The translations under genes were made by a program, and so were the position numbers. Under the pieces are notes generated by a model. That model saw only the letters and a program-made list of their open reading frames with translations. It was not told where the DNA came from and made no database searches. Below are positions 2,477 to 18,629 of a DNA stretch of 20,401 nt, piece by piece. How positions within the stretch are numbered: the first letter of the stretch is position 1; each line of letters opens with the position of its first letter. Source of the DNA: a virus; IMG/VR virus record IMGVR_UViG_3300027906_000199, positions 1-20,401 of that record; one strand, 5' to 3'.

Positions 2477-4522
2477 ATGCCTTTAGTAAATTTTAGCGAT
2501 TTAAATTTTGATCAGATAAAAACTTCAATAGTTGATTATCTTCGTGCAAATACAAATTTCACGGATTATGATTTTGAAGGATCTAATCTAAGTACAATCA
2601 TCGATACGTTAGCTTATAATACGTATATCACTTCATATAATGCCAATATGGCAACAAATGAAGTATTCATTGATAGTGCAACGTTAAGGGAGAATGTAGT
2701 ATCTCTTGCACGTAACATAGGATATGTACCTAGATCAAAGAAGTCATCAGTAGCAAGAATTAGTTTTACAGTAAATGTATCAAATACAACTGCTGTAGCT
2801 ATAACACTCAAGGCTGGTGAAGTTGTGGCATCTAGGTCAACTGGTGTCAATAGTATGAAGAATTTTACATTCTCTATACCAAATGATATTACAGTCCCAG
2901 TCAATTCTGCAGGTTTTGCAGACTTTTTCAATATTGATGTATATGAGGGAACATATGTCACTCAAACATTTACTGTCGATACTGCTAATCCTCAACAGAA
3001 ATTTGTATTACCTAACTCTGGTATTGATACCGATTTATTATCAGTTGTCGTAAGAGATACTAAAGACTCAACTGTAACTAGAAAGTTTGAGTTATTTGAT
3101 AGTTTATTTGACGTTACCGCATCAACTCGAGCATATTTTATTCAAGAGATTGGACAAGAGAGATATGAGTTGATGTTTGGTGATGGTATTTTTGGTGTTG
3201 CATTAGAGAATGACAATTATGTTGAAGCAAGTTATATTATTACAAATGGAAGTTTAGCAAATAATATTAACCAGTTCTCATTTATAGGTAATCTCAGAGC
3301 TACTAATGGTGATGCCGTAAGTTCTGGAGTATCAATTATAACTACAGAGGCATCATCTGGTGGTGGTAAATCAATTGAATCAGTTGAATCTATCAAAAAA
3401 TATGCACCTCAAATCTATGCATCACAAAACAGAGCAGTAACTGCAGCTGATTATGAAGCATTGATTCCACAAATTTATCCTGAAGCCGAATCAGTTTCAG
3501 CATTTGGTGGTGAAGATTTATCTCCACCTTCTTATGGTAAGGTGTTTGTAAGTATCAAACCATATAATGGTGTCTTCTTATCGAGTGCAATCAAACAAAA
3601 CTTACAACAGTATATGAGAAATTATTCTGTTGCAGGTATTTTGACTGAGATTGTTGACCTGAAGTATTTGTATATTGAATCAAATTGTAAGGTATACTAT
3701 GATGCTAATTTGGCACCAACTGCATCATATGTTAAGGACTTAGTTCTGAAGAATATTGTTAAGTATGCTGAATCATCTGATGTCAATAAGTTTGGTGGAA
3801 GGTTCAAGTATTCTAAGTATCAACAGGTAATTGACCAAAGTCAAGAATCTGTTATGTCAAACATTACAAATATTGACATAAGAAGAGACATTAATACACA
3901 ATTGAACACATTTGCTGAATATGAATTGTGTTTCGGAAATCGTTTTTATGTAAAAAATCATGGACATAGTGCAAATTATGATGGTAGTATTGTTGGATAT
4001 AATATTAAGTCATCCGGTTTTACTGTCAGTGGTATTAGTGGAACTGTATACCTAGGTGATAAACCCTATGGTGATTTGACTAAAGGAACAATATTCTTGT
4101 TCAAACTGAAGTCTTCATCAGAACCGTTTATTGTAAAACAAAATATAGGTACAATTGATTATATTAAGGGAGAGATTAAACTCAACCCACTCAATGTCAT
4201 ATCTACGATTGTGAACAGAGGGGCTCCTTTGATTGAAGTTTCTGCTACTCCATACTCAAATGACGTGATCGGACTCCAAGATCTCTATCTACAATTGGAT
4301 GTAAATAATACAACAGTTAACGTTATCCCTGACAATATTTCTTCTGGAAATGATGTATCAGGAAGTAACTATATTGTGTCTTCAAGTTATGGTTCTAATG
4401 TGTTGGTTAGAGGCCAGTTGATATTTCAAAACGAAGTAACACCTAGTCAATTACAAGATCGTCCCAACATAAACTTTACCTCAACTTCAGGTATAACTAG
4501 AAGAACAAGATCATCTTACTAA
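2477..4522 (+). CDS. 6: baseplate wedge subunit gp6 (J-like)
   Basis: A 681-aa protein of about the length of T4 gp6 (660), the dimeric core of the wedge and inner baseplate ring. The N-terminus MPLVNFSDLNFDQIKTSIVD, followed by the DYDFEGSNLSTIIDTLAYNT and NEVFIDSATLRENVVSLARN stretches at about residues 35-85, is the classic gp6/J-like signature. A further conserved block is AVTAADYEALIPQIYPEAES (about 320-339). The C-terminal ~170 residues (from NRFYVKNHGH) form a beta-rich region typical of the cyanophage version. The ATG abuts the gene 25 stop, with AGG (2471-2473) as a close weak ribosome site, which suggests expression by translational coupling. The giant gp7-like gene starts 18 nt after its stop. 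gp6 is cytoplasmic until assembled with gp7, gp8, gp10, gp25 and gp53. Confidence 0.93.
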   Translation: MPLVNFSDLNFDQIKTSIVDYLRANTNFTDYDFEGSNLSTIIDTLAYNTYITSYNANMATNEVFIDSATLRENVVSLARNIGYVPRSKKSSVARISFTVNVSNTTAVAITLKAGEVVASRSTGVNSMKNFTFSIPNDITVPVNSAGFADFFNIDVYEGTYVTQTFTVDTANPQQKFVLPNSGIDTDLLSVVVRDTKDSTVTRKFELFDSLFDVTASTRAYFIQEIGQERYELMFGDGIFGVALENDNYVEASYIITNGSLANNINQFSFIGNLRATNGDAVSSGVSIITTEASSGGGKSIESVESIKKYAPQIYASQNRAVTAADYEALIPQIYPEAESVSAFGGEDLSPPSYGKVFVSIKPYNGVFLSSAIKQNLQQYMRNYSVAGILTEIVDLKYLYIESNCKVYYDANLAPTASYVKDLVLKNIVKYAESSDVNKFGGRFKYSKYQQVIDQSQESVMSNITNIDIRRDINTQLNTFAEYELCFGNRFYVKNHGHSANYDGSIVGYNIKSSGFTVSGISGTVYLGDKPYGDLTKGTIFLFKLKSSSEPFIVKQNIGTIDYIKGEIKLNPLNVISTIVNRGAPLIEVSATPYSNDVIGLQDLYLQLDVNNTTVNVIPDNISSGNDVSGSNYIVSSSYGSNVLVRGQLIFQNEVTPSQLQDRPNINFTSTSGITRRTRSSY

Positions 4523-4540: not shown

Positions 4541-7500
4541 ATGACAGTAGATAGAGTTAAATTCCAACAAATTGTTGAGAGTCAACTCCCTAGATATGTT
4601 AGGGAAGATTTTCCGTTGCTCGGTGATTTCTTAAAACAGTATTATATCTCTCAGGAGTTTGAAAGTGGTCCTATTGATATTCTTGATAACATCGATCAAT
4701 ATGTAAAAGTTGACAAATTATGTGATGTTGTTGACTCTACTGTATTGACTAGATCAATAAACCAAGTTGAAGATACTATTGATGTATTCTCAACAGAAGG
4801 TTTCTCTGAAAATAATGGTATTATACAGATTAATAATGAAATTGTATTCTATCAAACCAAAACTGAGACTTCATTTGTAGATTGTTCTAGAGGTTTTAGT
4901 GGGGTTACAACATATATTACTCCTGGTACACCTGATGAACTGACATTTTCTACATCAATTGCAGATACTCACTTAATTGGTGCAAATGTAAAGAATTTAA
5001 ACGTTCTTTTTCTGAAACAATTTCTAACTAAACTAAAAAGGCAGGTAACTCCAGGGTTTACTGATAGAAATTTTTATCCAGGATTGAATCAAAGAAACTT
5101 CATACTCAATTCTGATAGTTTTTATAAGTCAAAAGGTACTGAACAATCATACGAAATACTCTTTCGGGCACTATATGGTGAAGATGTAGAACTTATTCGG
5201 CCATCAAAGTTCCTTTTAACACCATCTAATGCAGATTATAAGGTTACCAAAGACTTTGTTGTAGAACAACTTGAAGGTGATCCACTAGAATTAAAGAATC
5301 TTACCATATATCAAGAACTAACTGGTGCAAGAGGGTCTGTTACCAACGTACAACAGATACCTTATGAGAATTTTCAATACTATCAGATCAGTATTGACTC
5401 AGGTTATGATAGAGATGATGATGTAAGTGGTTCTATTTTTGGTGAATTCAAGGCAAATCCACTTACAAAAATTCTAAACAACGTAAGTGTTGGTTCAACT
5501 ATCATTGATGTTGACTCCACAATCGGGTTTCCTGAGTTTGGTACCCTTAGTGTATTGGATATTGACAATAATGAGGTATCTATTGCATATAGTGGTAAGA
5601 CTTCGAACCAATTTTTCAATACAAGTGGGGTCACTAATAAAGTTTTAAAGAAAGAAGACATAACTTTAGACACGTATTCGTATGCATACGTCGGTATTAC
5701 TACTGAAAAACAAATAAAAGTCAGATTTACGTCTACTATACAAGATTTTATCCCAAATGGACCCAATTTTTACTATAGGAAAAATGATACTGTAGAATTG
5801 CAGTCTCTTGGGTATGAATCTGAGACGAAAAAATCCAATAATTACGTATTAAATGTAAAAACTTACTGGGATGTTGTAGATACTAACGTTATTGATGCCG
5901 ATGCCTTTGTATATGAGTTCAAATTCCTAAAAGATCACTTTTTAAGAGAAGGTTATCAGGTAAGATATGAAAATTTAGACGGAACTTACTCAATTTTTGG
6001 TAAAGTTTCGAGAGTTGTGTCTGCAAGAGAAGTCAGAGTGACTTTTGCGCAGCAAATTAACCTAAAAGGACAGTTTATTATAGAAAATCAGACCTTAAAA
6101 GGTGATTCTCAGACATATCCTTACTTAAAAAACTACATTGCGAACGTTCAGAACACATATAGCAAGTATGATGGCGATTTAATCATTGCTTCCAACTCTA
6201 TTGCACGTTATAATAACATTGAAACTGATCCTTATGACAAAAAAATAACTTTTAGTGCAAATTTGAGTTCAACAGACATTCTTATCTTGCCAACTAATCC
6301 CACAACAAGGCCAGATCATGGCTTTTATACGGGTGATGCAGTATTTTTTACATCTGAGGGTAATGGTTTTGAAGGTGTACCTTCAGCTTCATACTTTGTG
6401 TATAGAATTGATGAGAAATCTATCAAACTTTCTAGAAGTAAGGCTGATTTGTCTAGAAAGATTTACATTACCTTCAATGGTTCTGTAGTTGATGCCTCTG
6501 TTGCATATCTTGATTTTTATCAGAAGAATATAGAACCCCAAGGATTGTATAGGCAGATTTCAGTACCTATCAATGATCAGAACTCTTATACCACTAGAGC
6601 CGGTTATACTGGCATGTTCATCAATGGTGTTGAACTAGTAAACTATAAGGACCAAAGTAGTGTTTATTATGGTCAGATTGATAATATGACCATGACTGCT
6701 GGTGGTCAAGGATATGACATTATAAATCCTCCAATATTGAAAATTTTTGATGAAGTTGGTTCTGGTGCCACTGGTATATGTAATGTAAAAGGTTCACTTC
6801 TAAGACTTGACGTTATAGACACTGGTCTTGGGTATTATGAAACCCCCACAATCTCTATTACTGGTGGTAATGGTACGGGTGCAAAAGCTGAACCAAGAAT
6901 GGTATCAATTAAGCATGAAAATTCGTTTTTTGCTGATTTTCCATCTCAAGTTGATCTGAATATTAATACAATCACCTTTCCAAGTGATCACAAACTATTG
7001 GATGGTGAAAAGATAGTCTACGAACCCAGAGGTACTGAAGTTATTACTGGTCTTAGAACTGATAGTTCTTACTTTGTATTTGTTGTAGACCAAGTTACTA
7101 TCCAACTTCATACGAGTAAAAGTGATTCACTTGTAGGTATCAATACAGTCAATTTCACAAAATATGGATCTGGTACTCAATACTTTGTTGCAGCAGATCT
7201 AAAACAGGTTGTGTCTTCAGTTGTAGTCACTAATCCAGGACAGAACTACGAAAACAAGCAAAGAACTATTCCTCCAGTAGGTGTTAATACTGCAGCAAAC
7301 CAAGTAGAAATTATAAATCATGGTTATGAATCAAAAGAAATTGTAAGATATACTAAACCAGCTTCTGGTAGTCCTGTTGAGGGACTAGAGGAAGAGACTG
7401 ACTACTATGTCGTCAAGGTTAGTGATAATGCATTCTCATTGACTGAAATTGGTGTTGAACCTGTATCAACAGATTATTATTATGATAGTGGTATTATTAT

Positions 7501-10500
7501 CAACTTTATAAATGAAGGTTTGGGTTCTTTCAACTATCAACCAATTACTGTAGAAGTTGAAGGTGCCGCAGCTTCTTATGATAAGACCTTCGTGGCAACT
7601 TTTGAAGAACTATTCATTATTGAGTCTCCAATTGAAAAAAATATCATTACACCTATTCAAACTCTTGCATGGACAGACACTGAAGCAGAGATTACAAATA
7701 ATGGTACAGTACCAAATGAATGGTATGTTGAAGTAAATACAAGGTCTGAATGGTTGATTAGTGATGTACCATTTATTGGTAACATTCTTCTGTATGATGC
7801 AAAAGTTCAACCCATCTTTAGAGGGTCTATTGAGAGTATCGATTTAACTGATGGTGGTGTTGGTTATGGTTCTTCAGATATTCTAGATTTTGTAAGACAA
7901 CCTGAAGTTGTGTTTAGTACTGGTGAGGGTGCAAAGGTAACCCCAATCATCAACAACGGACAAATTGTAGAAGTTGTTATCAATACTCCAGGTGAAGGTT
8001 ACAATTCTCCTCCAGACTTACAGATTGTGAGTGAGACAGGTGCCTATGCTGTTTTAGTTCCTATCATTGAAGATGGTTGTCTTAAGAATATAATCATATC
8101 GAAAGGTGGTACTGGTTATGTTACAGGTAAGACTGGTATCAATGTTATAGCATCCGGTAAGGGTGCTAGAGTGAATGCAAATACACAATCCTGGAATGTC
8201 AATCTATTTGAAAAAAATTATAATAATATCCTTGATGATGATGGATTTATTGAGGAGAATATTTCGAATGATACTCTAGAATATTGTGCTGCATATGTAC
8301 CTAGACCTCTCAGAAGAAGTCTGAATGTGATAAATGGTTTTGAAGAAAATAATGAGTTATATGGTATATTTGACTTAAGTTTTGTTCCAGAGACAGGTGA
8401 AGAGGCACCTAATATCTATCACTCACCTATCGTTGGATGGGCATATGATGGTAATCCGATTTATGGCCCTTATGGTTTTGCAAATATTGATGGTACAGGT
8501 GTTATCAAGAGAATGCAGTCCGGTTATAAACTGGCAAAAGTTCAAAAAGGTAGACCTCCTTATAGTGCATTCCCAAATGGGTTCTTTACAAAAGACTATA
8601 TTTTCAATGGTGATGGGGATTTGGATGTTCATAATGGTAGATTCTGTGTAACCCCTGATTATCCTGATGGAATATACGCATACTTCTGTACTATTTCAGA
8701 AGAGGTTGCTTCTACTGGTCCATTCACTAATTACAGAATTCCAGTATTCCCATATGTGATTGGTGATACTTATAGGTCAACACCTATAGCATATAACTTC
8801 TTGGCAAGGTCTAATCAAACTGATTATGATATTGAATGTAAGGGTTGGTTCAGAAACACCAAGTATTATTACACGAATGGTGGAAAGAGTGGATATGAAT
8901 ATATCTTCAATTCCAATACTGTGAGAAAACAGACTATTGATGTTACATCAACATCTGCTGGAATTGTAGATAATGTTGAAGTGTTTGACCGTGGTCAGGA
9001 TTATAGAGTCAATGACAAAGCAATCTTCAATAACACTGATACTGGTGGTAGGAATTTAAATGTTGTAGTCTCTAGAGTTGAAGGTAAAAAGGTAGAATCT
9101 GTAAGTCTTGCTACAACCTATATTGATAATGTTGAAGTTTATTCAAGTACTCTTTCTAATTTGTTTGTTGGATTGACTTCAGCACCACATGGTTTCCTTT
9201 CTGATGATACTGTTTTCATCGATGGACTTTCTGATACGTATAAGAATTTCCAAGGTTCTTATAGTATTGGTATTAGTAGTGCAAGATGGTTCACTTCTCT
9301 GGGTATTGAAACAGGTCCTGTTACCGGTATTGTGACTTACATATATGTTTCTGGTAGTCTTGATGGTTCTACTATACAATCAGATGACATTTTGAGGATT
9401 GATGATGAGAAGTTCAAAGTTCTGAATATCGATCAACTCTCAGGTAGGATTAGAGTCAAGAGGGGTTACGACGATACCTTGTCTGTTACTCATACTTCTG
9501 GTTCTTTGGTCAGTAATGACCCAAGACTAATTGCATTTATATCTGCAGGTATTACTACAACAAAAGATTTACCATCAAATAGAAAATATTACTTCGAACC
9601 TAATGAATCAGTAGGTCTTGGTAGTGAAGTTGTTGGTACTGCAACAACATTAGTATTTGCTAATCCTGGTGCAGGTAAGACTCAAATGAGAGTCGATCAA
9701 CAACAACTTTACATACCAGGTCATAACCTTACATTGAATACTCCAATGACCTACCATACTAATGGTGGTACATCTATTGATGTTTGGAGTGGAATTACTA
9801 GTTCTAATATATTCCCGTTAGAATCGAATAGACACGTTTTTGCAGTTCCGTTTACTAAAGATATAATCGGTATTGCTACAGTCAAGGTTGGTATTGATAG
9901 TACCTCAGGTCACTACGTTGGTATTTCTAGTGACACAGGTGGTCTTTTATACTTTACCACTTCAGTTGGTCTTGGTAGTTACCATAGTTTCCAAACCAAT
10001 CTTCCATCAGTATTCAGTTGTAGAGTTTCTAAGAACGTTGTTACTGTTGGTACTGCAGGTACACATGGATTGAAACCTAAAGATATTGTTACTGTTGATG
10101 TAAACCCAACTACAGTTACAGATATATCTGTCATCTATGATGATTATAATAGAAGAATTGTATTTGATCCTGATACTATTGAACCTGCAGGTATTAATAC
10201 AGTTGCTAATACCTTTGTTGTTCCTGAAGACAAGTATCAGTTAGGTGACAAGGTTATCTACAGTTCAGTAGATCCTGATCCAAATCTTTCTAATAAGGGT
10301 CTTTATTATGTTTATGTTTTTGACAACAATAAGATTAAGTTGGTTGAGTATGCATCTGAACTGAGTAGGGAGACACCTGCCTTTGTCAATATCGGAACTG
10401 CACACACCACTACACTCTCCAGAATCAATCCAGAACTGAAAGTTCAGAAAAATCAAAATATAAGATTTGATCTTTCTGATGATTCACTATCTTTTTCAAA

Positions 10501-13500
10501 TTCTGGTATTAAACTTTCTGCCTTTGATATGTTCATCTATAAAGATGATTCATATAGGAATAAATTCTGGATTGGAAGAAATTCGTCTTCCTTTGATGTT
10601 ATCAAAACCGGAGTTGTTGGTATCGATACAGATGCAAACTTGACTCTTGTAGTTAATGATGATATTCCCACTAATCTATGGTATAACTTTGAGGTTGATA
10701 ATGTTGATTTCAACCTACCAGTAAAATTGAAAGAATATACTGATACGACTGTATATAACAATAATCAGATTAATATCACCAAAAACAAATTTGATGGTGA
10801 TTATAAGGTTACTGGTATCACATCTATGACCTTTGATTATAATATTCCATATAATAGAGATACTATTGATAGTTACGATACAACGACTGCTATTATGAAG
10901 TATGTGACAAGTTCTCCCAACACGATTGGACCTATTGCACAATTTGCAATATTGGACCATGGAAAAGGTTACAGGTCTCTTCCTGGATTCCTTTTTGTGA
11001 ATAGTGCTAAGGGTTTTGGAGCACTGTTACAACCAACTAGTACTTCTATTGGTAATATTTTATCAACGAAGGTAAATTATATTGGGTTTGGTTATCCATC
11101 GGATACAACTCTGAATGCAGTTGGTAACTTACCAGAAGTTATGAAAATTGAACCTTTGGGTTCATTTGAGCATATTGGTATTAGTTCTAATGGTTTGAAC
11201 TACTATGAGGCACCAGACCTTGTTGTAATCGATGGTGTAACAAAAAAACAAATAACTGATGTAAAATTATTTTATAAGTTGGGTGATACCAACGTTGATA
11301 TTGTTGAGAACACAATTTCACTCAATAATGTTCTTCCATCAATTATTCCAACCAATAACTCAAACGGGTTTGGTATTAGTTCTGTTTCTTATGACTCAAC
11401 ATCGAAGGTTGTTAAACTTTCATTGTCCAAACAGTTTAGTGACCCTCAAGATTGGCCATTCAAATTGGGTGAGACCATAATTGTTGAAGATATTGCCATT
11501 GGTTTTAGTACTGACGGAAGAGGTTACAACTCAGCGAATTATGAGTATGCATTATTCCCGGTAATTGAGCTTGATAGCAATCTTGGTGGTTCTGGTGCAT
11601 ACATTAAGTATAGTCTGGCAGATTATCTCGGTCCTAATGAAGAACCAGGTAAAGTAACGAATTTTAATGTTGGAAAAATTACTCCAAAAACACATTTCCC
11701 AATTTTTAATATAAAATTAAAAATCTCCAATTTCTTTAATGGGGAAAAGGTGTATAATGCCGGTAATGAAGGTATTGTCGAGAGATGGGACCCCGTTAGT
11801 GAGTATCTGTTTGTCTCTACTGGTTCTGATTTTAAAGTTGGCAGTATTATTGAGTCTGAAACATCACAAATTAAGTCTAAAATCAAATCTAAAATTGATT
11901 TCCACTCAACTGTTACTCTTGGTGCAGGAACAACATTTATTGATGGTTGGCAATCCAACTCTGGTATGTTGAATGACAATCTTCAAGTTATTCCCAATAA
12001 TGAGTACTATCAGAACTTCTCATATTCACTCTCGTCGAGAGTTCCTTATAAGACTTGGGATGACCCAGTAAGTTCTCTCAACCATACTGCAGGTTTTGAG
12101 AAATTTGCAGACCTTATTATTGATAATGGTGCAGCAAGTATTACCACAGTCAAAGAAGTGGATGTTGAAACTGTTGTTGACCTTATTGGTGAGAGTAGTT
12201 TGTATTGTTTCCCTGATTTTGATGGTGTAACAGAAACTACTGTCAATATCAGTGATGGTAAGATAGTATCTGACACAATTATATTTGAAAACAAAATTCT
12301 ACTGGATTACTTCGAATCTAGAGGTAATAGAGTATTGGACATTGATGACTTTAGTGGAAGATTCAATAGTAATCCAAGGTCAACCAGATACTCTATTGTA
12401 GATTTCTTTGATAACAAGTATTTCTTTAACAAGTTCTTTATTTTGGTTCGGGATCAGGAACTCAGGAACAGAAATCAATTTAGTATTGTCTCACTAGTAC
12501 AGGATGGTAAGAGAGGTTTTGTCAATGAGTATAGTATCTTAGAGTCTGCAAGGCCTCTGGGTTATTATGGTTATATTAAGGCAGGAGAGGACAAATGGGG
12601 TCTAACCTTCTATCCATTCCTATACAAGTATAATAACTATGATATTTCTTACTTCACTTTCAGTGGATTGAATAATGTAACTGGAATTGGAACTCAACAA
12701 CTTGGTGATGTAGTTAGAATTTCTACTGCAAGTACTGATGTTGCTGTTGCAACAACCACTAATCTGGTTTCAATTGCATCTACTTATAGGGCTGCTAAAC
12801 TCCTTATTCAAATGCAAGATGCAGAAGACAATTATTATGGTAATGAACTCAATATAATTCACGATGGAACAAGAGTAACTACTCTTCAATATGGTGCAAA
12901 TGATAATAAAGTTGGACTTGCAGGTCTGGAAAGTTCTGGTTTTGGAACCTACCACACTTACATTTCTGGAGGATTGATTAAGGTTGATATTGTTCCTACT
13001 GTAGGGACTGCAGTTACTGCAAATGTAAGTATTGTTGCTATCTCTGATAGTAATTCTACTGGTGTATCTACAACAAATATGGTAGTTACAAATCTTTCAT
13101 CTTACAGTAAGACGATTGCAGCTTCTGCATCTCCCGTTGAAAATGTCGTTGCTTCTTACTCTACACCATTCAACTCAGAGTACTTTATTTTATCGATAGA
13201 AGATACTACAAACAATGAGTATGAGATGTATGAAGTGAACATTCTCAGTTTCGATTCTACTAATAGGATTGTCAAATATGGTGATATAGTAACCAACCAA
13301 ATAACTAATGCTGGTCTAGGAACTGTTGGTGTTACAAATACTGGTAATGAAACCAATCTTGTATTTACACCAGACCCCAATATTGATGTTCAAATAAGAG
13401 CATTTGGTATTTCTCTCAAGAATTACAATGATATTACTGGTATTTCCTCTATCAACCTCAATAATAACGTACTATTCTCAGAATATGGAACTTATACTGG

Positions 13501-16500
13501 TACAGAGTTTGACAAGAAGACTTCATTCTTATTGAACTCCAACTATCTTCCAATATTCCAAAGAAGTTTTGCTGGTAACGATCCACTTGTAGTCAAAACC
13601 AACAACAATAATGTTATTATTGATGACCACTACTTTGTAACGGGTGAGAAAGTTACTTACAGTTATGAGAACTCCAGTCAATCAACTGCAAATGCTATTG
13701 GTATTGGAACAACTGTAATTGCTGGTGTAGCTACAGATAAACTTCCATCTACTGTCTATATTGTAAAATTCAGTAATAAGGCTGTAGGGTTTGCGAAAAG
13801 TGCAGGGGCCGCACTAAGTGTTACTCCTGATTTATTAGATATAACCTCTGTTGGTATTGGCACATTCCATAAACTGACTTGTACGAATCAAAATGCACGA
13901 GCATTGATGGCAGTTGATAATATGATTCAATCACCAGTAACTGAAGTCAATATTGAAACACAATTGACAGAAAGTATTGTATTTGATGTTGACTTCAACG
14001 TTGTTGGAATCGAATCATTCAAGGCAGGTGATTTGGTGAAGATTGATGAGGAAATTATGACTATTCAGAGTACTGGGGTAACTTCTGATGACAGTCTTAA
14101 GGTTCTGAGGGGTCAGTTAGGAACAAAAGTTGCATCACACAATATAGGTACCTCAGTCAATTTACTTGGAGGTAACTACAATATTGTCGATAGCACAGTT
14201 TACTTCTCATCTGCTCCAGCGGGCGCAAGACCGATTGGAACTACTACAGCAGGTCCTGACAATGTTGACTGGACTGGTATTACAACACAATCTAGTTTCC
14301 AAGGTAGAACCTTTATTAGAAGTGGTGTTCGTGATACCGACCAAGATACTTATAGCACTAACTACACCTTTGACAATATTCAAAGTGGTTTCGATGGTCG
14401 AAGAAAGGAATTCAGTCTCACTCAAAATGGTCAAAACTTAGTTGGATTTGCAACTAATCAGGCAATCATATTGAATTCAAATATTCTTCAAGAACCACAA
14501 GGTGGTCAAGATACCACAGGTGATTTTAGTTTCCTTGAAGTTGCTGGTGTTACCAGTATTACATATACAGGTCAGAGTGTTTCTTCAGAAGAAGACCCGA
14601 ACAAAGCAACAATTCCTAGAGGAGGAACAATTATTGCTGTTGGTTCTACTCCTGGACTTGGTTATCAACCACTAATTGGTGCTGGTGCTTCTATATTTGT
14701 CAACTCTGGTGGTACAATCAATTCGATTAGTCTTGGCAATACTGGTTCTGGTTATAGAACTGGTATTCAGACGAATGTGGGTGTTGGTATTATCACATCT
14801 TCTGTAGGTATAACCACTGTTATTGGTATTGGTACTGCAAATATTATTGATGGTCATGTAGATAGTATTGACCTTTATAACCTTGGTTCTGACCTTGACT
14901 TCAATAATCCACCTGTAGTTACTATAGACCAACCAATTGGTTTTTCAAATATCCCGTTGGTTTACAGTCCTACTGCTCCAGCAGGAGTTGGTACTGGTGC
15001 AAGAGTTAATGTTACTGTTGGTCAGGGTTCCAGTATCATCAATTTCGATATAGTTAGTGGTGGTTTTGGTTACACTCTGGGTGATAAACTCAACGTTGCT
15101 ATTGGCGGTTCGACAGGTCTTAGAACAGATGCTAGCATCCCATTCACTCCCTTTGAACTAACTGTTACTGATGTATATCGTGACACCTTCAATGGTTTCA
15201 CTATCGGTGAACTAGAGGTATTTGATGTTATTGATGAGTTGTTTGACGGTGTGGCTAAAAAATTCCCCCTCACAATCGCAAAACAACAATATGCTATTGA
15301 AGCAAAGAAAGGTTCAGATATCAATCTTTCCCAGGCACTAATCATAACAATCAATGATGTTCTACAGATTCCTACAGAGGCATATAAGTTCACTGGTGGT
15401 GGTTATGTAGAATTTACAGAACCTCCCAAAAAAGGTGATTCTTGTAAAATTATCTTCTACATGGGTACTCCAGGAGTTGATGTTGTTTTTGTTGACATCC
15501 TCGAAACTGTTAAGATTGGTGATTCACTCCAAATCAAAAATGATAGTTCAAAGGGTCAAACTTTCAGTTTGTATCAAGACCCAAGAGTAGTGACTGGAAT
15601 TACTACTCTTGATACTGTAACTACTCTTGCATATCCTGGTCCTGGTGTTACTACAAATACATCACTTGTAAGACCTGTCACTTGGTGTAAGCAAACTGAT
15701 GATATCACAATCAATGGTACTTTTGTAACTAAGGACAGAATTGACCAGGAACCATATATCTATCCTGCAGCACTACTCACATCTTATGTTGGGTTTACTA
15801 GTAGTTATGCTTATGTTGATAGTGTTAGACCATTGTTTAACTCTAGTGCTGAGACAAATCTTCTTGATTATCAAGATAAAATTTCAATTCTAGACCAAGG
15901 AGTAATTGATGTTGCCACTGCAACAGCAACAACTGGACCAGCAGGAATAATCTCCTCATTTACTGTAACTAATGTCGGTTCTGGTTATAGTTACTTGACA
16001 AACCCATCAGTATCAGTTTCTTTACCTGATGACCCAAGTGGTACTAGAGCAATTGGTATTGCATCTGTAGTCGGTAATGGAGTTGTATCTATTTCTGTGG
16101 CTAGCCCAGGAGCCGGATATACTCAAGCACCTACTGTTCTTATTCAACAACCAACTCCAAGATTAGAAAGGATTGGAGTTTCATCATATTTTGGTGATTA
16201 TGGTGATATTGTTGGTTATGCACATTCTGGTATCAATACGGCATTTATTGAACTTTATATCCCAGAAGATTCTTATATGAGAGACCCTGAGTATGTTGGT
16301 AGTGCTGTTACAGTCAGTCAAATAATTAAGAATGATATCTTTATGGTCAAGGTCTCAAATGTCGGTATATTTACTGGTAATAATTTTGATGGACTTTATA
16401 CGGTCAAGAATGCAGAAACTGTTACTAAAAATCTTTCAAACCTAGGTTTGGGTGTAACCCAAGTTAGAAGAATTGAGTTTACCGGTCAGGGTTACTCTCC

Positions 16501-16681
16501 TGGTTCCGGTGTATTCTATAATGAAAGAATTTATGGTGAATATACATGGGGTAAAATAGGTTTCATAAACAGAGTTCCTGCTACTGCACTAGAGTTCTAC
16601 CCTCAACCTTATAGTGGAATGTCAACATCACCTCTTATCCAAAGATTGGAACCATTGAAATTCAATAATTACAATGTTTAG
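4541..16681 (+). CDS. giant modular virion protein, gp7-like N-terminus (4046 aa)
   Basis: A single 12.1-kb frame without a break. It holds the T4 gene 7 position, between 6 and 8. Residues 24-60 and 158-233 resemble the C-terminal core of T4 gp7; the key block is FYKSKGTEQSYEILFRALY (194-212) followed by GEDVE. The rest is built of recurring modules: a Gly-rich 'GGxGY...P' type (near 721-788, 1096-1221, 1472-1523, 2130-2295, 3390-3533, 3802-3872); an 'H..GD.V.Y...YYV..VD...I.L' type (582-640, 809-884, 921-976, 1890-1962, 3023-3113); and an 'I.ID.E....RG..GT...H' type (67-125, 308-363, 1605-1657, 3143-3215). A YHYH-type domain lies at about 1231-1400. The C-terminus has GEYTWGKIGF and ends SPLIQRLEPLKFNNYNV. 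T4 gp7 is 1032 aa, so this is about four times longer. Probable role: wedge scaffold extended by surface-exposed beta modules. The start is ATG with weak AAGAAG upstream. Structural role is near certain; gp7 identity is likely. Confidence 0.85.
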   Translation: MTVDRVKFQQIVESQLPRYVREDFPLLGDFLKQYYISQEFESGPIDILDNIDQYVKVDKLCDVVDSTVLTRSINQVEDTIDVFSTEGFSENNGIIQINNEIVFYQTKTETSFVDCSRGFSGVTTYITPGTPDELTFSTSIADTHLIGANVKNLNVLFLKQFLTKLKRQVTPGFTDRNFYPGLNQRNFILNSDSFYKSKGTEQSYEILFRALYGEDVELIRPSKFLLTPSNADYKVTKDFVVEQLEGDPLELKNLTIYQELTGARGSVTNVQQIPYENFQYYQISIDSGYDRDDDVSGSIFGEFKANPLTKILNNVSVGSTIIDVDSTIGFPEFGTLSVLDIDNNEVSIAYSGKTSNQFFNTSGVTNKVLKKEDITLDTYSYAYVGITTEKQIKVRFTSTIQDFIPNGPNFYYRKNDTVELQSLGYESETKKSNNYVLNVKTYWDVVDTNVIDADAFVYEFKFLKDHFLREGYQVRYENLDGTYSIFGKVSRVVSAREVRVTFAQQINLKGQFIIENQTLKGDSQTYPYLKNYIANVQNTYSKYDGDLIIASNSIARYNNIETDPYDKKITFSANLSSTDILILPTNPTTRPDHGFYTGDAVFFTSEGNGFEGVPSASYFVYRIDEKSIKLSRSKADLSRKIYITFNGSVVDASVAYLDFYQKNIEPQGLYRQISVPINDQNSYTTRAGYTGMFINGVELVNYKDQSSVYYGQIDNMTMTAGGQGYDIINPPILKIFDEVGSGATGICNVKGSLLRLDVIDTGLGYYETPTISITGGNGTGAKAEPRMVSIKHENSFFADFPSQVDLNINTITFPSDHKLLDGEKIVYEPRGTEVITGLRTDSSYFVFVVDQVTIQLHTSKSDSLVGINTVNFTKYGSGTQYFVAADLKQVVSSVVVTNPGQNYENKQRTIPPVGVNTAANQVEIINHGYESKEIVRYTKPASGSPVEGLEEETDYYVVKVSDNAFSLTEIGVEPVSTDYYYDSGIIINFINEGLGSFNYQPITVEVEGAAASYDKTFVATFEELFIIESPIEKNIITPIQTLAWTDTEAEITNNGTVPNEWYVEVNTRSEWLISDVPFIGNILLYDAKVQPIFRGSIESIDLTDGGVGYGSSDILDFVRQPEVVFSTGEGAKVTPIINNGQIVEVVINTPGEGYNSPPDLQIVSETGAYAVLVPIIEDGCLKNIIISKGGTGYVTGKTGINVIASGKGARVNANTQSWNVNLFEKNYNNILDDDGFIEENISNDTLEYCAAYVPRPLRRSLNVINGFEENNELYGIFDLSFVPETGEEAPNIYHSPIVGWAYDGNPIYGPYGFANIDGTGVIKRMQSGYKLAKVQKGRPPYSAFPNGFFTKDYIFNGDGDLDVHNGRFCVTPDYPDGIYAYFCTISEEVASTGPFTNYRIPVFPYVIGDTYRSTPIAYNFLARSNQTDYDIECKGWFRNTKYYYTNGGKSGYEYIFNSNTVRKQTIDVTSTSAGIVDNVEVFDRGQDYRVNDKAIFNNTDTGGRNLNVVVSRVEGKKVESVSLATTYIDNVEVYSSTLSNLFVGLTSAPHGFLSDDTVFIDGLSDTYKNFQGSYSIGISSARWFTSLGIETGPVTGIVTYIYVSGSLDGSTIQSDDILRIDDEKFKVLNIDQLSGRIRVKRGYDDTLSVTHTSGSLVSNDPRLIAFISAGITTTKDLPSNRKYYFEPNESVGLGSEVVGTATTLVFANPGAGKTQMRVDQQQLYIPGHNLTLNTPMTYHTNGGTSIDVWSGITSSNIFPLESNRHVFAVPFTKDIIGIATVKVGIDSTSGHYVGISSDTGGLLYFTTSVGLGSYHSFQTNLPSVFSCRVSKNVVTVGTAGTHGLKPKDIVTVDVNPTTVTDISVIYDDYNRRIVFDPDTIEPAGINTVANTFVVPEDKYQLGDKVIYSSVDPDPNLSNKGLYYVYVFDNNKIKLVEYASELSRETPAFVNIGTAHTTTLSRINPELKVQKNQNIRFDLSDDSLSFSNSGIKLSAFDMFIYKDDSYRNKFWIGRNSSSFDVIKTGVVGIDTDANLTLVVNDDIPTNLWYNFEVDNVDFNLPVKLKEYTDTTVYNNNQINITKNKFDGDYKVTGITSMTFDYNIPYNRDTIDSYDTTTAIMKYVTSSPNTIGPIAQFAILDHGKGYRSLPGFLFVNSAKGFGALLQPTSTSIGNILSTKVNYIGFGYPSDTTLNAVGNLPEVMKIEPLGSFEHIGISSNGLNYYEAPDLVVIDGVTKKQITDVKLFYKLGDTNVDIVENTISLNNVLPSIIPTNNSNGFGISSVSYDSTSKVVKLSLSKQFSDPQDWPFKLGETIIVEDIAIGFSTDGRGYNSANYEYALFPVIELDSNLGGSGAYIKYSLADYLGPNEEPGKVTNFNVGKITPKTHFPIFNIKLKISNFFNGEKVYNAGNEGIVERWDPVSEYLFVSTGSDFKVGSIIESETSQIKSKIKSKIDFHSTVTLGAGTTFIDGWQSNSGMLNDNLQVIPNNEYYQNFSYSLSSRVPYKTWDDPVSSLNHTAGFEKFADLIIDNGAASITTVKEVDVETVVDLIGESSLYCFPDFDGVTETTVNISDGKIVSDTIIFENKILLDYFESRGNRVLDIDDFSGRFNSNPRSTRYSIVDFFDNKYFFNKFFILVRDQELRNRNQFSIVSLVQDGKRGFVNEYSILESARPLGYYGYIKAGEDKWGLTFYPFLYKYNNYDISYFTFSGLNNVTGIGTQQLGDVVRISTASTDVAVATTTNLVSIASTYRAAKLLIQMQDAEDNYYGNELNIIHDGTRVTTLQYGANDNKVGLAGLESSGFGTYHTYISGGLIKVDIVPTVGTAVTANVSIVAISDSNSTGVSTTNMVVTNLSSYSKTIAASASPVENVVASYSTPFNSEYFILSIEDTTNNEYEMYEVNILSFDSTNRIVKYGDIVTNQITNAGLGTVGVTNTGNETNLVFTPDPNIDVQIRAFGISLKNYNDITGISSINLNNNVLFSEYGTYTGTEFDKKTSFLLNSNYLPIFQRSFAGNDPLVVKTNNNNVIIDDHYFVTGEKVTYSYENSSQSTANAIGIGTTVIAGVATDKLPSTVYIVKFSNKAVGFAKSAGAALSVTPDLLDITSVGIGTFHKLTCTNQNARALMAVDNMIQSPVTEVNIETQLTESIVFDVDFNVVGIESFKAGDLVKIDEEIMTIQSTGVTSDDSLKVLRGQLGTKVASHNIGTSVNLLGGNYNIVDSTVYFSSAPAGARPIGTTTAGPDNVDWTGITTQSSFQGRTFIRSGVRDTDQDTYSTNYTFDNIQSGFDGRRKEFSLTQNGQNLVGFATNQAIILNSNILQEPQGGQDTTGDFSFLEVAGVTSITYTGQSVSSEEDPNKATIPRGGTIIAVGSTPGLGYQPLIGAGASIFVNSGGTINSISLGNTGSGYRTGIQTNVGVGIITSSVGITTVIGIGTANIIDGHVDSIDLYNLGSDLDFNNPPVVTIDQPIGFSNIPLVYSPTAPAGVGTGARVNVTVGQGSSIINFDIVSGGFGYTLGDKLNVAIGGSTGLRTDASIPFTPFELTVTDVYRDTFNGFTIGELEVFDVIDELFDGVAKKFPLTIAKQQYAIEAKKGSDINLSQALIITINDVLQIPTEAYKFTGGGYVEFTEPPKKGDSCKIIFYMGTPGVDVVFVDILETVKIGDSLQIKNDSSKGQTFSLYQDPRVVTGITTLDTVTTLAYPGPGVTTNTSLVRPVTWCKQTDDITINGTFVTKDRIDQEPYIYPAALLTSYVGFTSSYAYVDSVRPLFNSSAETNLLDYQDKISILDQGVIDVATATATTGPAGIISSFTVTNVGSGYSYLTNPSVSVSLPDDPSGTRAIGIASVVGNGVVSISVASPGAGYTQAPTVLIQQPTPRLERIGVSSYFGDYGDIVGYAHSGINTAFIELYIPEDSYMRDPEYVGSAVTVSQIIKNDIFMVKVSNVGIFTGNNFDGLYTVKNAETVTKNLSNLGLGVTQVRRIEFTGQGYSPGSGVFYNERIYGEYTWGKIGFINRVPATALEFYPQPYSGMSTSPLIQRLEPLKFNNYNV
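8231..8740 (+). other. YHYH-type domain within the giant protein
   Basis: Residues ~1231-1400 of the 4046-aa protein contain HSPIVGWAYDGNPIYGPYGF (1294-1313), the hallmark of YHYH-domain proteins. It is followed by NGRFCVTPDYPDG and then YAYF at 1379-1382, where family members usually have YHYH. Both His of the naming motif are therefore absent. The domain sits after a run of Gly-rich modules. Bounds are estimated from motif positions. Confidence 0.75.
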
Positions 16682-16717: not shown

Positions 16718-17044
16718 ATGGCATATCAAGGTATTAATACGGGTACATCTCCCAATACGGGTTCAGGTGACTCTCTAATTGTAGGTGCCGAAAAGATTAA
16801 TAGTAATTTTCTTCAACTGTTTACAGCCGTTGGTCTTGGTTCCACTGGGACTGGTGATGTTAGTGTGAAATCTCTGACGGTTTCTGGTGTAACAACTTTA
16901 TCCACAGTTTCGGCATCTTCTTCGATTACCGCAACTGGTGGATTTACAAGTGGAATTGGTACCCCGGTTAAGATTTCCGTAGTAGGATCTACATTGACAT
17001 TTAGTGTTGCTGGTATTGGATCTACAACTCTTACATTATCGTAA
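16718..17044 (+). CDS. small virion structural protein (108 aa), GTGSGDSL type
   Basis: A 108-residue protein low in charge and rich in Gly, Ser, Thr and Val. The N-terminal block NTGSGDSLIVGAEKINSNF (13-31) is a recurrent signature of cyanophage structural and fibre-like proteins, where it often opens the chain. Residues ~50-76 (VKSLTVSGVTTLSTVSASSS and on) look like a beta-structured stalk of the type found in phage fibres. The C-terminus closes with GSTLTFSVAGIGSTTLTLS. AAGGA (16700-16704) is a plausible, rather distant ribosome site. It sits between the gp7-like and gp8 genes, where T4 has none, with its own late promoter (16682). Probable role: a minor baseplate or fibre-attachment protein; the exact role is inferred from location and composition. 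Confidence 0.75.
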   Translation: MAYQGINTGTSPNTGSGDSLIVGAEKINSNFLQLFTAVGLGSTGTGDVSVKSLTVSGVTTLSTVSASSSITATGGFTSGIGTPVKISVVGSTLTFSVAGIGSTTLTLS

Positions 17045-17069: not shown

Positions 17070-18629
17070 ATGGCTGCTATAATTACAGATCAACTCCGCA
17101 TATTAAATGCGAAGAATTTTGTGGATGATGTACAGAATTCCGCAAATTCTTACTATGCGTGGATTGGTTTACCTGACGCTACTGCATTTCAAAGTGACTG
17201 GGATTCTAATCCTCCAGCACCTAAAGACAGTTTAAATGATTCCAATAATTATTGGGATGATATGTTGGCTCTGAAACGAATCAATGCGTCGGATGTGAGC
17301 CAAGTTGTTAGAAAAATTATATGGCAGTCTGGAACCACATATGATATGTGGAGAAATGATATTACAAGGGATAACCCATCTCTCCCTTCTAATGCATATG
17401 ACATTTATGATGCAAATTACTATGTAATGAATAGTGAGTATAAAGTTTATATTTGTCTATTCAATAATGCAAATCCAGAGAATAGCTATAGAGGTGGTCC
17501 ATCACTAGACGAACCAAATTTCACTGATTTGGAGCCTAGAGAGGCTGGTAGTAGTGGTGATGGTTATATTTGGAAATATCTTTATACTATCAAACCAAAT
17601 GAGATTATCAAGTTTGATTCTACTAATTATATAGCAGTACCAACTGATTGGTTTACTAGTCCAACTTATGCTCCAGTAAGGGAAAATGCTGCTAATAGTG
17701 GTGAAATCAAAATTGTAACCATTAGAAATCGTGGTGTTGGTATTGGAACTGCAAACGTTACTTATACAAGAGTACCTATTTTAGGTAATGGTAGAGGAGC
17801 AGAAGCTACTGTTGTTGTCAATAATGATGCAAAGGTAGAGTCTGTGACTGTATCTAATGGTGGTAATGGTTATACCTTTGGTACACTAGATTTGAAAAAT
17901 GGTGGTGTTCCAAGTGGAACAATTGCACCAGTCTTTGATGTGATTATACCTCCTCCAGGTGGTCATGGTGCTAATATCTATACTGAGTTGGGTGCATATA
18001 ATGTTCTATCTTATGCAAGATTTGAAAATGACACTCAAAACCCAGATTTTATCACAGGAAACCAATTTGCCCAAGTTGGAATTGTAAAAAATCCAACAAA
18101 TTATGATTCTTCTTCAAATCTTACAAGAGACAAGGCTAGTGCTCTATATGCACTCAAACTTGTAGGTACTGGTTATAGTCAGGCGACATTTGTCGCAGAC
18201 TCTTTTGTAACTCAGACTGTTGGTCTTGGTTCTACTGCTGTAGGAAGAGTTGTTTCTTATGACACACAAACTGGTATTCTAAAGTACTGGCAGGACAAAC
18301 GAACTGCAGGTTTTAATACCGATGGAACTCCAGATACAACCCCTGTTTATGGGTTTAATCAGTTACGCTTCACGGAATCTCCAACTGCAGGCGGTAGTAT
18401 TGCTATTGTTCCTACTACAGGTAATACCTTGAGTATTGATGTGAACTTTACGGGTGTTTCTACGGCAATAAATAATAGGACATACTACTTGGGTCAGGAA
18501 TTCACAAAAGGAGTATCAAATCCAGAATCACAAAAATATTCTGGTGATATCATCTATGTTGATAATAGACCTTCTGTTACCCGATCCTCTTCCCAGAAAG
18601 AAGACGTTAAAGTTATCTTGCAATTCTAA
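17070..18629 (+). CDS. 8: baseplate wedge subunit gp8, enlarged
   Basis: A 519-aa homologue of T4 gp8 (334 aa), a dimeric wedge protein that contacts gp6, gp7 and gp10. Three recalled family matches stand out: an N-terminal opening with an aromatic YYAWIGLPDATAF segment (about 28-40); SGDGYIWKYLYTIKPN (163-178), matching GDGYVWEYLFEI in T4; and the C-terminus YSGDIIYVDNRPSV...VILQF (about 490-519), matching the T4 ending with HSGEMIYMENRP. Much of the extra length is a Gly-rich block at about 211-293 (IVTIRNRGVGIGTANVTY, GNGRGAEATVVV, VTVSNGGNGYTF). It is of the same kind as the repeats in the giant protein upstream. The start ATG has a weak ribosome site. A late promoter lies at 17044, and the next gene starts 5 nt after its stop. 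Confidence 0.92.
   Translation: MAAIITDQLRILNAKNFVDDVQNSANSYYAWIGLPDATAFQSDWDSNPPAPKDSLNDSNNYWDDMLALKRINASDVSQVVRKIIWQSGTTYDMWRNDITRDNPSLPSNAYDIYDANYYVMNSEYKVYICLFNNANPENSYRGGPSLDEPNFTDLEPREAGSSGDGYIWKYLYTIKPNEIIKFDSTNYIAVPTDWFTSPTYAPVRENAANSGEIKIVTIRNRGVGIGTANVTYTRVPILGNGRGAEATVVVNNDAKVESVTVSNGGNGYTFGTLDLKNGGVPSGTIAPVFDVIIPPPGGHGANIYTELGAYNVLSYARFENDTQNPDFITGNQFAQVGIVKNPTNYDSSSNLTRDKASALYALKLVGTGYSQATFVADSFVTQTVGLGSTAVGRVVSYDTQTGILKYWQDKRTAGFNTDGTPDTTPVYGFNQLRFTESPTAGGSIAIVPTTGNTLSIDVNFTGVSTAINNRTYYLGQEFTKGVSNPESQKYSGDIIYVDNRPSVTRSSSQKEDVKVILQF
18468..18474 (+). promoter_or_regulatory. possible internal late promoter inside gene 8
   Basis: A full ATAAATA (in CAATAAATAATAGG) lies within the 3' part of gene 8, about 160 nt before the DUF4815-type gene, which has no late promoter in its 5-nt gap. 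It may drive that gene, or be a chance match in an Asn-rich stretch (AINNR). Confidence 0.3.

Follow-up and report, generated by a model that had tools for sequence, protein, structure and literature searches.

A giant gp7 baseplate wedge protein in a T4-like cyanophage, with a conserved core probably split by a long insertion

The 4046-residue open reading frame at positions 4541–16681 (+ strand) of the window, the whole 20,401-base stretch of DNA analysed here, is very probably the gp7 wedge scaffold of a T4-like cyanophage, in which the conserved gp7 core is split and the insertion and C-terminal tail would serve as arms. The window, an IMG/VR virus record in its full length, is a fragment and carries on the + strand, in order, gp25 (2057–2476; PF04965, E 1.3e-15; start codon uncertain), gp6 (2477–4522; PF21379, PF21387 and PF21871; phrog_219, E 2.2e-191), the giant frame (assigned from the open frame itself, its sequence and profile matches), an ORF of 108 residues with weak similarity to the N-terminus of T4 gp9/10 (16718–17044; PF07880, E 2.7e-4, below cut-off; phrog_677, E 9.3e-11), gp8 (17070–18629; PF09215, phrog_438) and the start of a DUF4815 (‘VrlC’) gene cut by the contig end (18635–20401; PF16075, E 3.8e-31; PDB 9euf_0, E 2.7e-15). 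An initial annotation placed the giant gene exactly between genes 6 and 8, which is nearly right, gp6 lying on its upstream side and gp8 downstream, but with the 108-residue ORF intervening before gp8. The slot of this small ORF is filled by a 458-residue protein in S-B05, and neither Bellamy nor P-HM1 has an annotated gene between gp7 and gp8. At the other end of the window, a 260-residue ORF (863–1645) belongs to phrog_1574 and resembles phage glycosyltransferases more weakly.

The identification as gp7 is supported by sequence, profiles, gene order and the finding of no second gp7 in three complete relatives. That a 4046-residue chain opens with a block recalling the T4 gp7 core, as first noted from the DNA alone, holds for the frame itself, and the resemblance of residues 194–217 (FYKSKGTEQSYEILFRALYGEDVE) to T4 gp7 is borne out by phmmer, by a 46-sequence profile (A2) and by hhalign. 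When giant residues 1–300 were compared with all PDB chains (phmmer, E ≤ 10), two sequences only were returned, both of them gp7: the T4-like gp7 9f4a (E 0.0034, aligned at 727–764) and T4 gp7 (5hx2, 5iv5; E 0.0052, aligned at 725–762). The whole giant gave no PDB match at E ≤ 1 by phmmer. Profile A2 retrieved the same two proteins from the PDB more strongly (T4 gp7 1.3e-5, T4-like gp7 2.5e-5), with the first non-gp7 entry at 0.15; heat-labile enterotoxin matches at 0.15–0.18 were taken as chance. Alignment by hhalign to the T4-type gp7 family placed window residues 186–286 on T4 726–814 (E 1e-8), and addition of Aeh1 and F86 to that family gave E 2e-9 against 0.0081 for the best of 60 column shuffles, this second alignment covering residues 187–218 only. 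In T4 the block occupies residues 725–762 of 1032 and is followed by domain V (766–861), the HPVGF piece and domain VI (920–1012); it is therefore not the end of the T4 chain, as had been supposed.

The matching residues belong to a KGT helix block (residues 150–217; 4988–5191, +) recognised by phmmer, profile and hhalign. Ahead of it lie the gp7 N-terminal helices (residues 1–60; 4541–4720, +), assigned from helices in an AlphaFold2 model at pLDDT under 50 and from weak core-profile matches, and a β module (residues 61–149; 4721–4987, +), to which a stretch at 314–361 is related. Weak core-profile matches also fall on the start of the X1, phiM12 and C48C1 proteins (E 3e-4 to 0.008). Residues 10–122 of the phiM12-like profile align with T4 644–758 (hhalign), and it is through the phiM12-like gp7s, without direct alignment to T4 and with a model pLDDT under 50, that the T4 N-terminal helical domain (643–689) is tentatively linked to the giant. 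Behind the KGT block, residues 232–290 and about 391–399 (5234–5737, +) form a counterpart of T4 domain V, found by hhalign to T4 726–814 and by VIA-align, which is split by an Ig-like domain at residues 305–378 (VIA-align to 9n71_A, Z 10.0, rmsd 1.9 over 74 residues, model 305–378). The AlphaFold2 model of residues 1–560 has a mean pLDDT of 69, with the N-terminal helices under 50 and the KGT helices at about 49–70. A Foldseek search with the model ranked gp7-containing entries second and third (9f4a_A0, E 1.1e-4; 5iv5_BJ, E 4.8e-4; chains assigned to gp7 by their residue ranges). VIA-align superposed model residues 232–399 on T4 gp7 763–841 (5hx2_A, Z 8.6, rmsd 2.2, 78 residues), a score that is equally reached by unrelated β barrels and so counts as support rather than proof. 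Matches of model residues about 434–519 to V-ATPase and elongation factors were taken as a common β barrel.

A later part of the gp7 core was recognised far downstream. Among 240 comparisons of giant slices with T4 baseplate proteins, the best match outside the core joined window residues about 2497–2519 to T4 gp7 866–888 in two overlapping slices (E 0.003 and 0.0037), leading us to recognise a later gp7 piece (YYQxFSY ... HxxGF; residues 2467–2526; 11939–12118, +) defined by profile A5, hhalign and spacing. Window residues 2468–2526 correspond to T4 gp7 about 850–889, which holds HPVGF, and the pattern is found in cyanophage, X1, C48C1, T4, Aeh1 and phiM12-like gp7s. Apart from the core, neither the T4 N-terminal part nor the C-terminal part with domain VI gave an E below 0.003 with any giant slice, and the same was true of T4 gp5, gp6, gp8–gp12, gp53 and Wac; for domain VI (920–1012) and the N-terminal part there was no convincing slice match. 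Profile A5, built without T4, Aeh1 and F86, matches within the gp7 gene in all nine whole records searched, including T4 (1.9e-4), F86 (0.0013) and Aeh1 (0.0032); as its rows include sequences from the window, P-HM1, X1 and C48C1 as well as a near-copy of phiM12, matches there are by construction and the independent ones are those in Bellamy, P-SSM4, T4, Aeh1 and F86. A pooled profile of the later piece aligned with T4 at 7.8e-5 (hhalign; best of 100 shuffles 0.0027), but a profile of cyanophage rows only reached 0.013, exactly the value of its best shuffle, so the link of the later piece to T4 runs via intermediates and is moderate. The cyanophage piece aligns with its phiM12-like and short gp7 counterparts at 3.2e-12 and 3.2e-5, respectively (hhalign). 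Against the PDB the pooled profile placed two gp7s at the top, weakly (0.088 and 0.19); integrin matches at E 1.3–1.5 were taken as chance.

The failure of the cyanophage-only profile to rise above shuffles against T4, together with the giant’s wealth of repeated modules, some of them common to gp8, would fit a reading of residues 2468–2526 as a generic tail module recruited into an extension rather than as gp7 core. We consider this improbable. Outside gp7 genes, A5 produced a single match in the nine whole records (E 0.002), in a stop-broken 75-residue frame of P-HM1. A tblastn search with the 80 residues around the later piece matched 339 phage records at 340 places, and the 60 matches listed are annotated as wedge/gp7 (19), structural protein (25), hypothetical (14), YHYH (1) or nothing (1), gene place having been looked at for a few only. 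The order of the spaced pieces and the Pfam model PF23786 also agree with a gp7 core part: model positions 5–52, 158–221 and 235–280 match P-SSM4 gp7 in order at 4–50, 667–730 and 3551–3592, and positions 7–41, 176–221 and 230–279 give three ordered matches in Cr30 gp7. Most other records show one or two pieces and S-B05 none. In the window PF23786 scored 15.7 bits against a curated cut-off of 27 (E 0.01), with nothing at E ≤ 10 in a second run, and the window protein is not filed under this family. T4, Aeh1 and F86 likewise have no match at E ≤ 1, so PF23786 does not define gp7.

How far the later piece lies behind the KGT block differs greatly among gp7s. The gap is 11–18 residues in short marine gp7s (75/75 complete proteins from 80 loci, the five incomplete ones being excluded), 92–104 in the T4 types T4, Aeh1 and F86 (3/3, with a weak later piece, E 5e-4 to 0.006), 264 in X1, 552 in Cr30, 660–973 in phiM12-like proteins (31/31; phiM12 plus 30 of 40 loci, with a 520-residue protein and the incomplete ones excluded) and 1999–2821 in giant cyanophage gp7s (31/31, selected by length; the window together with five named phages and 25 of 80 loci). 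The window protein has 149 residues before the KGT block, 2,250 from there to the later piece and 1,520 after it. As 28 of the 31 phiM12-like proteins terminate 19–50 residues beyond the later piece, the mass that precedes it in them is an insertion, and the series as a whole indicates, from sequence, that most of the giant’s extra mass is likewise internal.

T4 gp7 (1032 residues; 5IV5, 5HX2) shares with the giant its gene place and the order of KGT block, domain V and HPxGF piece, but has about 640 extra N-terminal residues and only 92 residues from KGT block to later piece, where the window has 2,250, with a 1,520-residue tail in addition. The gp7s of the cyanophages S-B05 (4024 residues), Bellamy (4067), P-HM1 (4446), P-SSM2 (5195) and P-SSM4 (7312) are the same gene in the same place with the same split layout, P-SSM4 differing from the window by a further insertion of about 500 residues ahead of the KGT block. 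Sinorhizobium phage phiM12 gp7 (1007 residues) and its uncultured relatives also have the N-terminal core, an insertion and the later piece, but with 660–973 residues between the pieces and mostly an end soon after the second. Short gp7s of the C48C1 type (309–323 residues) have both core pieces in the same order, separated by 11–18 residues and without the giant insertion; an AlphaFold2 model of this family (A7) reached a pLDDT of 33. With sizes that run from 309 up to 7312 residues, the series opens the growth of a molecular machine to structural test, and the approximate boundaries given here allow the gp7 core to be expressed or modelled without its insertion.

The initial annotation had read the giant as a gp7 without its former N-terminal fold but with a single huge C-terminal extension added behind the core. 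Its best conserved block does lie near the N-terminus with 3,800 residues behind it, yet the later gp7 piece at 2468–2526, in the right order, implies that about 2,070 residues are inserted in the core and that 1,520 form a true C-terminal tail. The gp7 identity stands and the extension stands in part, for the tail; the loss finds no support. In the non-T4-type gp7s examined the T4 N-terminal part would not fit, with at most 179 residues before the KGT block except in P-SSM4, which has 655 there and N-terminal core helices that still begin at residue 6. Among the gp7s examined, the 640-residue N-terminal part occurs in T4 types only. P2 gpI (176 residues) and R2 pyocin PA0619 (177 residues), the latter named as a wedge counterpart in PMC10457771, are also short. 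Loss together with a single extension is accordingly an unlikely history, and given the short non-T4 N-termini, the alignment of phiM12-like gp7s from T4 644 onwards and the size of P2 gpI and PA0619, the T4 lineage probably added the first 640 residues of its gp7, rather than cyanophages having lost them. P2 gpI resembles gp7 in a KGT motif in register with three gp7 profiles, and hhalign gave E 0.1 to short gp7 (best of 40 shuffles 0.1), 0.029 to phiM12-like gp7 (0.076) and 0.023 to the cyanophage core (0.096), with a result worse than shuffles for the T4 gp7 family; with E values so close to shuffle level we do not claim homology. A quick gp6 tree (90 rows, midpoint root, long-branch warnings) places the giants on one side of a branch with support 99, the short gp7s with 100 and the three T4 types with 100. 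The tree thus sets the giants apart but gives no direction of change. The intermediate gp7s need two changes on it, and X1 is a long branch.

No separate gp7 was found elsewhere in three complete relatives with giants, the window itself being a 20.4-kb fragment. When Bellamy, P-HM1 and P-SSM4 were searched as complete records, matches of the core and T4 profiles and of PF23786 fell on the giant (3/3), with one exception in P-SSM4, a core-profile match to the β module in another frame; the T4 gp7 profile had no match in the complete P-HM1 record. Elsewhere, one IMG/VR contig (loci L087 and L088) has two T4-type gp7 matches ~14 kb apart, by duplication or assembly artefact.

In many cyanophage records the gene already carries a gp7 annotation. 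Among 60 listed of 479 records matched by the giant gene, 15 call it gp7, wedge initiator, wedge subunit or wedge protein, and the others structural, virion structural, hypothetical or nothing, with one VrlC and one head closure; two Pelagibacter records are among the matches. The giants of S-B05, Bellamy, P-HM1, P-SSM2 and P-SSM4 are annotated gp7 and/or baseplate wedge initiator. In the literature, a 2010 study in Environ Microbiol (PMC3037559) places gp7 in the non-cyanophage core and remarks on its divergence, and a 2020 mSystems paper (PMC7029224) states that cyano- and pelagimyophages lack T4 Gp7, for which VrlC appears to stand in. Our results contradict this absence of gp7 as far as cyanophages are concerned, and replacement of gp7 by VrlC (DUF4815), for which the published statement speaks, is in our judgement hardly credible: the gene that lies between gp6 and gp8 carries a gp7-core signal, an annotated gp7-like gene occurs alongside a VrlC-like gene in phiM12, and the window’s DUF4815 protein has its own match among solved proteins (9euf). 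Searches of the open-licence literature turned up no published account of a split gp7 core.

The insertion, about 2,070 residues with repeated modules between domain V and the HPxGF piece (residues 400–2467; 5738–11941, +), contains a YHYH domain (PF14240; residues 1294–1387; 8420–8701, +) matched at E 9.4e-25 and 88.1 bits (curated cut-off 25) over profile positions 93–184 of 193. All five giants looked at (window, Bellamy, P-HM1, P-SSM2 and P-SSM4) have YHYH within the insertion, and the records of T4, X1, phiM12, C48C1 and Cr30 gave no match at E ≤ 0.001. At what we take to be the position of the motif the window reads IYAYFCT, which differs from the motif in the family’s name; the eight relatives shown have YAYF or YAYY. 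P-SSM4 has further YHYH matches in another frame of 1443 residues. The C-terminal tail of 1,520 residues (2527–4046; 12119–16678, +) contains more repeated modules. Some modules of the insertion are common to gp8 of the same window; one, at gp8 residues about 206–272, recurs several times in both insertion and tail. Mean identity to the window is 0.61–0.62 in the N-terminal helices, the KGT block and the later piece and 0.57 in the YHYH stretch. Domain V and the modules that surround the core have 0.45–0.50, and most of the insertion and tail 0.39–0.46, the last 447 residues reaching 0.50 (two sequences only). A chain of this size might be cut by a protease during assembly, with core, insertion and tail acting separately, though we give this a small chance; size is the one point in its favour. 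Against it, a single open frame runs through KGT block, insertion and later piece in 31/31 giants (length-selected), although cleavage could still occur with such a frame.

The two gp7 core parts, N-terminal and later, may fold as one unit that pairs with two gp6 chains, in the manner of T4 and XM1. The insertion would then emerge from the wedge as an arm anchored at its two ends, with the tail as a second arm, and six gp7 copies would ring the baseplate as a periphery contacting the host or holding fibres, passing a binding signal to gp6 and gp25. Known systems offer analogies. As PMC10457771 describes it, gp17 of Vibrio phage XM1 (242 residues) plays the gp7 role in a wedge of (gp6)2-gp7 type, and an internal loop and the C-terminus of this gp7 ortholog carry the 12 tail spikes; it is, unlike the giant, very small. 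T4 gp7 is a monomer present in six copies, whose domain A swivels outward upon the baseplate switch, according to PMC3004832. In two phiM12-like loci (L205 and L235), DUF285 (BspA-like) repeats are fused behind the later gp7 piece, indicating that the free end also accepts surface-type domains; a BLF1 match in the repeat-rich L235, with no stretch passing, was taken as chance. The repeated modules, the YHYH domain, these DUF285 ends, the XM1 spikes and T4 domain A together suggest, by analogy, that insertion and tail may be peripheral arms touching the host or holding fibres. More tentatively, and short of an even chance in our estimation, gp7 could be a two-piece clamp with sockets, in which phages would load the gap between domain V and HPxGF and the free C-terminus to make the baseplate larger. 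Six giant arms, each a closed YHYH-bearing loop plus an open tail, would in marine cyanophages then take the place of separate T4 periphery proteins, as a second layer integral to the baseplate or a ring in contact with the receptor. The layout of the giant gp7 itself suggests how phages enlarge their cell-attack machine.

Variation of the layout is seen in individual proteins. The second insertion of P-SSM4 gp7, about 500 residues, lies at about 111–616, between N-terminal part and KGT block. The gp7 frame of locus L009, with its first 560 residues 81% identical to the window, stops near 3200 residues, through a frameshift or a true shortening. Inside the insertion of X1 gp7, residues 260–338 match the tail sheath family Gp18_dom_I of Pfam (E 2.9e-6).
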